DNA from: Thalassovita autumnalis
GTDB lineage: Bacteria > Pseudomonadota > Alphaproteobacteria > Rhodobacterales > Rhodobacteraceae
Assembly: GCF_001458255.1 (NCBI RefSeq)
Contig: NZ_CYSB01000009.1
Location: forward strand, 1 to 64,000
Reading direction: 5' to 3'
Length of the DNA: 64,000 nucleotides
Positions 14,698 to 16,148 of this stretch are shown piece after piece. How positions within the stretch are numbered: the stretch's first letter is position 1; each line of letters opens with the position of its first letter. The notes beneath the pieces are model-generated. The model made no database searches. It was not told the DNA's origin and saw only the letters and a list, made by a program, of their open reading frames with translations. The position numbers and the translations under genes were made by a program.

Positions 14698-15099
14698 TTA
14701 GGGTTTGAGGGGCAGGCGTGGCCCGGCCATCAAGGCCGCGCCACCTGCGGGCAGCAGCAGTACCCATTGTGGCAGGGTGATCAGCCCGTAGGCCCCTTCA
14801 AGATGCAGCGCGATGGCGATGAACAACGCGCCCCCCAGCAGGTAGAGCCAGCTGAAATAGCGCGCAGCCGGACCACCCTGCCAAAACACATAAGCAGACA
14901 GGATCAAAAAACCGCTGACCATGTGCCATGCGGCCCAGATGGTGCCGCGCACAAACAGCGGCAGATCAGTCTGCATCACCGGCATCAGCGTATCCATTGT
15001 TCCTAAAATCGTATGGGCGGCGGCAGAAATGCCCGCCAGCCCAACCGCAAACATGCGGGCAAAATGTGGGACGACAACCTGTTTGGAGGTCCGGGTCAT
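14698..15099 (-). CDS. small four-helix membrane protein of unknown function
   Basis: A 133-residue protein with four predicted membrane helices (about 15-33, 48-70, 78-97 and 107-127) and short loops. I do not recognise a named family. It lies 27 bases from the end of the convergent homocysteine methyltransferase gene and just downstream of the CcsR-type RNA array, whose terminator stands between. No enzyme motif is visible. Confidence 0.65.
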   Translation of the reverse strand: MTRTSKQVVVPHFARMFAVGLAGISAAAHTILGTMDTLMPVMQTDLPLFVRGTIWAAWHMVSGFLILSAYVFWQGGPAARYFSWLYLLGGALFIAIALHLEGAYGLITLPQWVLLLPAGGAALMAGPRLPLKP

Positions 15100-15222: not shown

Positions 15223-15266
15223 CAAAAACAAAACGGCGACACCCAGGGAGGAGGAGGGTATCGCCG
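15223..15266 (-). terminator. terminator closing the CcsR-type RNA array
   Basis: The last stem-loop of the array on the minus strand runs directly into TTTTGTTTTTG, so this hairpin doubles as a Rho-independent terminator for the transcript that starts at the DUF1127 gene. No comparable T run follows the other seven hairpins. Confidence 0.75.
15234..15266 (-). ncRNA. CcsR/cuckoo-type sRNA hairpin 8
   Basis: Stem CGGCGA/TCGCCG plus ACCC/GGGT around one C-A mismatch, loop TCCTCCTCCCT on the minus strand. It is followed at once by a T run, so it ends the array. Confidence 0.83.
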
Positions 15267-15275
15267 TCTTCTTTG

Positions 15276-15307
15276 CGGCACCCTCAGGGAGGAGGAAGAG
15301 AGTGCCG
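15276..15307 (-). ncRNA. CcsR/cuckoo-type sRNA hairpin 7
   Basis: Stem CGGCAC/GTGCCG plus CTC/GAG around one mismatch, with the loop CCTCCTCCCT on the minus strand preceded by one extra T. It is slightly less regular than the others. Confidence 0.8.
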
Positions 15308-15323
15308 TATCTGGGTCAAGGGT

Positions 15324-15358
15324 GCGGTGACCTCAGGGAGGAGGAGAGAGGCCACCGC
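15324..15358 (-). ncRNA. CcsR/cuckoo-type sRNA hairpin 6
   Basis: Stem GCGGTG/CACCGC plus CCTC/GAGG around one mismatch, with the common loop on the minus strand. One arm equals that of hairpin 2; the other has drifted by one base. Confidence 0.83.
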
Positions 15359-15366
15359 TCTTGACA

Positions 15367-15404
15367 ACGACCTGGGTCTAGGGAGGAGGAGAAGACCCGG
15401 TCGT
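15367..15404 (-). ncRNA. CcsR/cuckoo-type sRNA hairpin 5
   Basis: Stem of 6 plus 6 bp (ACGACC/GGTCGT and GGGTCT/AGACCC) with a single bulged base and the common CCTCCTCCC loop on the minus strand. The spacing to hairpin 4 is the widest in the array. Confidence 0.85.
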
Positions 15405-15434
15405 ATAACGTTGCCCCTTGCGGGGCTGTCAGTT

Positions 15435-15467
15435 GCGGCGCTCTCAGGGAGGAGGAGAGAGCGCCGC
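15435..15467 (-). ncRNA. CcsR/cuckoo-type sRNA hairpin 4
   Basis: A perfect 11 bp stem (GCGGCGCTCTC and complement) closing the common loop TCCTCCTCCCT on the minus strand. It is the most stable-looking stem of the series together with hairpin 2. Confidence 0.85.
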
Positions 15468-15475
15468 GCTTGACA

Positions 15476-15512
15476 ACGAAAGATCTCAGGGAGGAGGAGA
15501 GAGATCCTTCGT
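15476..15512 (-). ncRNA. CcsR/cuckoo-type sRNA hairpin 3
   Basis: Stem of 5 plus 6 bp (ACGAA/TTCGT and GATCTC/GAGATC) interrupted by one A-C mismatch, with the same CCTCCTCCCT loop on the minus strand. Confidence 0.85.
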
Positions 15513-15519
15513 ATTCAGT

Positions 15520-15553
15520 GCGGTGACCTCAGGGAGGAGGAGGAGGTCACCGC
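15520..15553 (-). ncRNA. CcsR/cuckoo-type sRNA hairpin 2
   Basis: A perfect 11 bp stem (GCGGTGACCTC and complement) with the common CCTCCTCCCT loop on the minus strand. Its 5' arm in plus-strand reading is identical to that of hairpin 6, suggesting duplication. Confidence 0.85.
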
Positions 15554-15560
15554 CAGATCA

Positions 15561-15593
15561 CAGAAGCCTCAGGGAGGAGGAGAGAGGCTTCTG
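15561..15593 (-). ncRNA. CcsR/cuckoo-type sRNA hairpin 1
   Basis: A perfect 10 bp stem (CAGAAGCCTC with its complement) holds a loop reading TCCTCCTCCCT on the minus strand. This is the first of eight such units between the DUF1127 gene and a terminator. Stems differ while the loop stays fixed, which points to selection on RNA structure and on the anti-Shine-Dalgarno loop. In Rhodobacter sphaeroides four homologous CcsR RNAs with CCUCCUCCC loops follow a DUF1127 gene in the same way and are made by processing a common transcript. Confidence 0.85.
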
Positions 15594-15606
15594 AACCCGT
15601 TAACTC

Positions 15607-15825
15607 TTATTTGCCGTTGTAGGCGTGTTCCCAAGCAACCGAACGCAGTTGGCTGCGGCTCAGGCCCAGGTCGCGCAGTTCGCGATCACCCAGAGCCGAC
15701 ATTTCGTTCAGGGTGTCACGGAACAGCTTGCGGCGTGCACGGCGTTCCTGCAGGTCCTGGATCAGCGCCGCGAAGCGGTCTGCGATGCCGAAGGTCTCAG
15801 TGCGAAGGATCGATGCGTTTGCCAT
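15607..15825 (-). CDS. DUF1127 small basic protein (CcaF1-like)
   Basis: A 72-residue protein with the DUF1127 (YjiS-like) motif at its C-terminus: LNEMSALGDRELRDLGLSRSQL. In Rhodobacter sphaeroides the homologue RSP_6037/CcaF1 is an RNA-binding protein that affects maturation of the CcsR RNAs encoded just behind it, and the same order is seen here. I chose the ATG of MANASIL at 15825, preceded by AAGAGAGA, over a 126-residue extension whose extra part looks non-coding. Gene and RNA array are very likely one transcript, stress-controlled if the Rhodobacter model holds. Confidence 0.88.
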   Translation of the reverse strand: MANASILRTETFGIADRFAALIQDLQERRARRKLFRDTLNEMSALGDRELRDLGLSRSQLRSVAWEHAYNGK

Positions 15826-15889
15826 TGGTCTATCTCTCTTACGTGCGTCTGTTGCGCCATCGTGGCGCCGTGTCTCGTTTGATGACCCC

Positions 15890-15918
15890 AATATGTGTCT
15901 TTCGCTGCAATTGCACAA
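15890..15918 (-). promoter_or_regulatory. candidate promoter of the DUF1127-CcsR unit
   Basis: On the minus strand TTGTGC (15918-15913) and CATATT (15895-15890) are 17 bp apart, 65 bases before the DUF1127 start. CATATT resembles the -10 of heat-shock-type (RpoH) promoters, which drive the Rhodobacter equivalent. Sigma assignment is inference. Confidence 0.4.
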
Positions 15919-16148
15919 TCGCTGATGCCGCAACGCAGCTATGCAGTAGATGCATATGAAATGCTGACCTATTTTCCCTTGGGTCACTTCATCGCAATTT
16001 TTCGGTTAAGATGTTGTTAATAATTAACTTGTGCCCCTTTAGGGGCATCAAGGGGGCTAAAGGTGCATCGAAAACTCCTCTTGTAAGTGCTGGAATTTGG
16101 GTCACCTTTGCCTGCGAAATTGGCACAAGAATCACGGTGGAGACCGAC

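Follow-up and report, generated by a model that had tools for sequence, protein, structure and literature searches.

A small DUF1127 gene of Thalassovita autumnalis is followed by a run of stem-loops. This raises the question of what kind of locus it is, and whether its number of hairpins marks an expansion in this lineage. We addressed both points in a window of 64,000 nucleotides, the whole stretch of DNA that was analysed, and in related genomes. The array is a further example of the stress-RNA locus known from Rhodobacter.

The hairpin array and its locus

Eight hairpins lie on the minus strand between 15593 and 15228, each with an exact CCTCCTCCC in its loop (5' bases at plus-strand coordinates 15580, 15540, 15497, 15455, 15389, 15344, 15295 and 15254), as the first-pass annotation had described when it reported eight minus-strand stem-loops with a common anti-Shine-Dalgarno loop. 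Pieces of 54 nt folded at -18.0 to -32.8 kcal/mol, with CCTCCTCCC in the loop of every stem. This 9-mer occurs 31 times in the genome; eight copies fall within the 335 bases of the array, where by our arithmetic about 0.001 copies would be expected by chance, and 23 lie elsewhere in 4.36 Mb. On a gap-free count, seven of the array hairpins have 11-18 pairs, and hairpin 5 has 7 because of a bulge. Among the 22 of 23 other copies that were read, one reaches at least 10 pairs (L015, with 11), the next being L022 (9) and L028 (7), and no second array was found. L015 (G000:C11:21678-21686, minus strand) is a lone hairpin outside the array.

The array can be read as four units on the minus strand, each of an A- and a B-type hairpin. 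In unit 1, hairpin 1 (15561-15593, A type) and hairpin 2 (15520-15553, B type) are placed by their folds and lie inside a match to the Rfam model ar14 at 15475-15600. Unit 2 comprises hairpin 3 (15476-15512, A type), placed by fold and within a match to the CcsR1 model at 15430-15516, and hairpin 4 (15435-15467, B type), placed by fold and covariation, whose outer helix reaches 15425-15477. In unit 3, hairpin 5 (15368-15404, A type) has one bulge and lies in a CcsR1 match at 15319-15409 (47.3 bits), and hairpin 6 (15324-15358, B type), supported by fold and covariation, has the outer helix GTCAAG/CTTGAC. Unit 4 has hairpin 7 (15276-15307) at the A position, placed by fold and within a CcsR1 match at 15228-15312, and hairpin 8 (15228-15268, B type), which is followed by TTTTGTTTTTG. 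A terminal hairpin with a T run is present, as had been annotated, but it is hairpin 8 itself and not an additional one.

Directly upstream of the array, at 15607-15825 on the minus strand, lies the annotated DUF1127 gene. It is ccaF1-like and encodes a product of 72 aa that scored 33.0 bits with PF06568 (cut-off 23.3), and it was matched in all nine same-genus genomes. The mrp gene is upstream and divergent in the window, as it is at 73 of the 80 DUF1127 loci compared, so that gene, array and synteny follow the ccaF1-CcsR arrangement. At least one exact-motif hairpin lies behind the gene at 77 of the 80 loci (just one in 5 of these 77), a count that overstates the linkage because the query was built from array-linked proteins. 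Of the three loci without a motif hairpin, one has sequence for just 165 bases past the gene before it is cut. Arrays are absent from four further DUF1127 loci of same-genus genomes (L070-L073), one of which belongs to the genome of the window.

Past the array, a 133-aa ORF (14698-15099, minus strand) has no Pfam match and was not found at the 80 DUF1127 loci. Elsewhere in the window, five identical tandem tRNA-Gly(GCC) genes lie at 2157-2697 on the minus strand, with a tRNA-Thr gene nearby at 1897-1972.

A predicted promoter block spans 15890-15919 on the minus strand, with ATTGTGCA (15919-15912) and a -10-like CACATATT (15897-15890). ATTGTGCA was found in 74 of the 80 regions upstream of the DUF1127 start; at a fixed distance after it, GCAGCA is present in 69 of these 74, CATGTT in 37 and CCCCAT in 34, and the conserved block is common to the window and Cereibacter. 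It resembles the RpoH promoter consensus and is a putative RpoH-type promoter. An RpoHI/RpoHII promoter has been reported for the ccaF1-CcsR operon of R. sphaeroides (PMC10253847). Upstream of the promoter, a palindrome-like block, GCTGCGTTGCGGCATC (15924-15939, minus strand), emerged from the consensus over the 74 upstream regions; the relatives' consensus is near GCTGCATnGCAGCATTG, and the block is perhaps a regulator site.

Family membership and stem pairing

The array has the traits of the cuckoo RNA family, which is reportedly owed to Reinkensmeier and Giegerich (2015): its hairpins are adjacent, each loop carries CCUCCUCCC, and the stems are not conserved. The linkage of a short DUF1127 gene with CcsR-like RNAs has been named the CIN1 locus (PMC10253847). 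The family is described as having 2-4 hairpins (PMC4504443); there are eight here, which may be read as four two-hairpin motifs.

Covariance models pointed to the same family. The ar14 model (RF02344) scored 60.1 bits at 15475-15600, above its gathering score of 58.8, and two further stretches scored 42.7 and 38.3 bits, below it. The window shares the loop and the hypervariable stems of ar14/NfeR1, but NfeR1 is reported to have three hairpins and its own sigma-70 promoter (PMC7143759). The CcsR1 model (RF02791) matched hairpins 3-4, 5-6 and 7-8 with E values of 6.7e-10, 2e-07 and 4.4e-07; the scores of 47.3, 38.9 and 37.8 bits are all under the gathering score of 65.3, and no match was listed for hairpins 1-2. 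The genome-wide CcsR1 count for this genome is four, given without positions, and in a genome of the same genus (G076) four matches span all four hairpin pairs. Three of the four units of Cereibacter johrii also fall below the CcsR1 cut-off and one passes. Across the family, CcsR1 matched 243 of 295 genomes at E <= 0.001, with 10 of the 295 above the cut-off; 1 of 14 control genomes was matched, below the cut-off.

The annotated CcsR/cuckoo assignment, and its ccaF1-type locus, is thus borne out by the ar14 score, the three low-E CcsR1 matches and the mrp synteny. With the CcsR1-4/ccaF1 locus of Rhodobacter sphaeroides the window shares the DUF1127 gene, the position divergent from mrp, the two-hairpin CCUCCUCCC units, the promoter block, and four units with eight hairpins, as in two close relatives of that species; it differs in the letters of stems and linkers and in its sub-threshold unit scores.

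The stems differ among hairpins yet keep pairing, as had been proposed. Across 712 hairpins the arms scored a mean of 9.8 with their own partners, 5.7 when swapped and 4.1 when shuffled, and the loop is conserved while the stems vary across the arrays compared. In an alignment of 14 B-type hairpins of the genus, whose rows mix two array positions, 96.5% of cells were paired (31-59% in slid controls), and 7 of 15 pairs had changes on both sides, a value as high in 1 of 500 shuffles; compensatory changes are therefore present among relatives. Further pair types in this alignment showed no excess: 497 of 500 shuffles equalled or surpassed the observed value. In the cross-pairing matrix, hairpin 5 scored 6.0 with its own partner when the bulge was disallowed, below some foreign partners, and cross-pairing was seen among the B-type arms of hairpins 2, 6 and 8 and between hairpins 4 and 7.

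Hairpin number and the repeated unit

The first-pass annotation had read eight copies, set against the four CcsR RNAs of R. sphaeroides, as an expansion in this lineage. That comparison placed hairpins beside RNAs. The CcsR1 model is 83 nt long with two hairpins and two CCUCCUCCC loops; one CcsR is therefore a two-hairpin unit, and four CcsR RNAs correspond to eight hairpins, the number in the window. Two species close to R. sphaeroides, C. johrii (L134) and Luteovulum azotoformans (L136), each have eight hairpins, spaced in pairs, with four CcsR1 matches. R. sphaeroides itself probably has eight, judging from these two relatives and the two-hairpin Rfam model, strain 2.4.1 being absent from the loci compared. 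With this misreading corrected, the window has four units of two hairpins each, like the Rhodobacter relatives.

Counts in related genomes speak against the claimed expansion as well. The 77 arrays, among which some contigs are cut and two loci come from one C. johrii assembly, have a median of nine hairpins: 11 have exactly 8, 43 have more and 23 fewer. Exact-motif hairpins number 7-10 in each of the nine same-genus genomes and 0-16 over the 80 DUF1127 loci. Lineage expansion was accordingly rejected, eight being near the median and typical of the genus and of the R. sphaeroides relatives; it is a usual number.

The near-identity of hairpins 2 and 6, a second sign of expansion in the earlier reading, was confirmed (92% across 26 flanking bases) but does not serve that purpose. 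In the window it falls to 80% over 40 bases and 73% over 60 (gapped). Over 26 bases the identity is 0.88, 0.92 and 0.88 in G300, G076 and G299, and over 60 bases it is 72-73% in these genomes and the window. Since the likeness is common to the four genomes compared, it did not arise recently in the lineage of the window, and a recent duplicate is unsupported. An older, hairpin-confined likeness fits a common B-type stem or hairpin-level conversion better than a recent expansion. Over 40 flanking bases, identity between two hairpins of one array reaches 90% or more in 35 of 82 arrays, and 44 of 82 have a pair more similar than hairpins 2 and 6, the window's best at 80%.

Among 73 arrays of six or more hairpins, the greatest likeness fell at lags 1, 2, 3 and 4 in 2, 55, 7 and 9 arrays, respectively, when gaps were allowed, and in 3, 47, 9 and 14 arrays without gaps. 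Odd-to-even steps were short in 295 of 341 cases and even-to-odd steps long in 186 of 287. This alternation of spacing, together with the lag-2 likeness, indicates that the usual unit is a hairpin pair.

Predicted action and candidate targets

The sequence of the window shows a DUF1127 gene with a conserved block upstream of it and, in its 3' UTR, eight hairpins in four A-B pairs, of which the final hairpin is the terminator. The relatives offer a model for its action. CcsR1-4 are reported to be co-transcribed with ccaF1 and processed by RNase E (PMC10253847); RNase E cuts them from the ccaF1 transcript, and they are described as degraded by PNPase and Hfq-dependent (PMC7866481). The flhR mRNA is reported as a target of these RNAs, which also influence the PDH complex (PMC8307010), and Sinorhizobium NfeR1 is reported to silence ntrB and two ABC-transporter mRNAs via three redundant CCUCCUCCC loops (PMC10746234). 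By analogy, we infer that the window array works like these relatives. Under RpoH-type stress one transcript of the DUF1127 gene and the array would be made, and RNase E, with the DUF1127 protein, would cut the linkers to give about four two-hairpin sRNAs. Their loops would pair with extended Shine-Dalgarno sites, GGGAGGA(G), and block initiation on mRNAs for nutrient uptake and acetyl-CoA supply (e.g. dctP, acs), so that carbon uptake would be lowered during stress. The multiple loops would be redundant copies that raise the dose, and the stems would count as folds rather than as letters. We consider it probable that the locus is an ordinary ccaF1-CcsR/cuckoo locus (CIN1 type) of a Rhodobacteraceae bacterium and acts by this processing and Shine-Dalgarno blocking. 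Judged from the published relatives, direct mRNA pairing appears better supported than the graded pool or sponge suggested at first.

The leaders in the genome give weak evidence of such targets. GGGAGGAG followed by ATG occurs at 25 sites, compared with 4 for the reversed pattern. Eighteen of the 25 open an ORF of 100 aa or longer, the start being unsure in three (L220, L231 and L235, whose frames are open for at least 92 codons upstream), and 8 of the 18 encode parts of uptake transporters, 6 of them substrate-binding proteins. One control set, TAAGGAGA, gave 21 sites; 16 have an ORF of that length, and 2 of these 16 encode transporter ATPases. The difference for uptake genes (8/18 vs 2/16) has a Fisher p of 0.06 and that for substrate-binding proteins (6/18 vs 0/16) a p of 0.02, both comparisons having been made after the lists were seen. 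In a further genome, G296, 20 of 25 GGGAGGAG sites were fetched and 17 open such an ORF; 5 of these encode uptake parts (FadL-like, DctP), and 7 encode acetyl-CoA synthetase, other AMP-binding enzymes, acyl-CoA dehydrogenase, thiolase, or a dehydrogenase E1 component (taken as PDH).

The leader of dctP, a candidate target of the array loops, has GGGAGGAG in all eight same-genus genomes with the gene; dctP was unmatched in the ninth, which is 83% complete. A search of 22 genomes from other genera matched dctP in 9; of five leaders read, four have GGGAGGA and one GGGAGGAG. Three of five acs leaders read have GGGAGGAG. The pdhA leader has it in just 3 of 9 genomes, the window's own not among them, and pdhA was rejected as a conserved target. 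A strong Shine-Dalgarno sequence at such leaders may be retained for translation alone.

A different role, in which the hairpins chiefly act on the DUF1127 protein as its binding sites, a decoy or a feedback element in its own 3' UTR, seems unlikely. It would suit the gene-array linkage at 77 of 80 loci, though that count carries the query bias noted above, and the distance of 15-30 bases from the stop codon to the first motif, seen at 47 of the 54 loci with an ORF found, and CcaF1 is reported to bind RNA and to alter CcsR maturation and half-life (PMC10253847, PMC8307010). However, the loop letters contain the anti-Shine-Dalgarno sequence of the 16S tail, and the same loops base-pair in NfeR1, an RNA with a sigma-70 promoter of its own (PMC7143759, PMC10746234).

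That shared sequence, CCTCCT in both the loop and the 16S tail GGATCACCTCCTTTC (letters of sister genome G300, the window's draft having given no match to a longer pattern), and the many loop copies would also fit a general damper or ribosome mimic, which titrates Shine-Dalgarno-bearing mRNAs or 30S factors and has no specific targets. We hold this to be quite improbable, since the full loop prefers GGGAGGAG sites over TAAGGAGA sites: it pairs more strongly than the 16S tail in all 18 GGGAGGAG leaders whose ORF has 100 aa or more (mean -19.5 vs -13.9 kcal/mol) but in 12 of 20 control leaders, and published relatives have defined targets. Finally, a merely stabilising 3' UTR or multiple terminator, to which the strong stems and terminal T run would conform, is very hard to credit when the loop is conserved while the stems vary and when 36 of the 77 final hairpins, compared with 12 of 567 internal ones, are followed by a strict T run.

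At least one adjacent motif pair is present in 218 of 295 family genomes, and the maximum of 25 belongs to L241 (G165), a 26-hairpin array behind a DUF1127 gene. This satellite-like array is built of 6.5 copies, at 97% matches, of a 140-bp higher-order unit that holds three hairpins; L242 has a similar 142-bp unit in 3.5 copies at 89%. The hairpin counts in three records of Salipiger bermudensis are 14, 10 and 8. A literature search on Roseobacter, sRNA and DUF1127 together found nothing, and hairpin counts or long arrays may still be in print.

The analysis yields a family-wide array count, a common promoter block and a short list of candidate targets. Because the number ranges from 0 to 16 at the 80 loci and reaches 26, with a 140-bp three-hairpin repeat, in L241, we tentatively entertain the possibility, on balance doubtful, that such arrays act like regulatory satellites. 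Units of two (or three) hairpins would be gained, lost and homogenised, and hairpin number would be a heritable dosage dial for a regulon defined solely by the extended Shine-Dalgarno site GGGAGGA(G) that couples stress to carbon uptake across Rhodobacteraceae. If hairpin number does set dose, natural array variation could reveal how sRNA copy number tunes a regulon.
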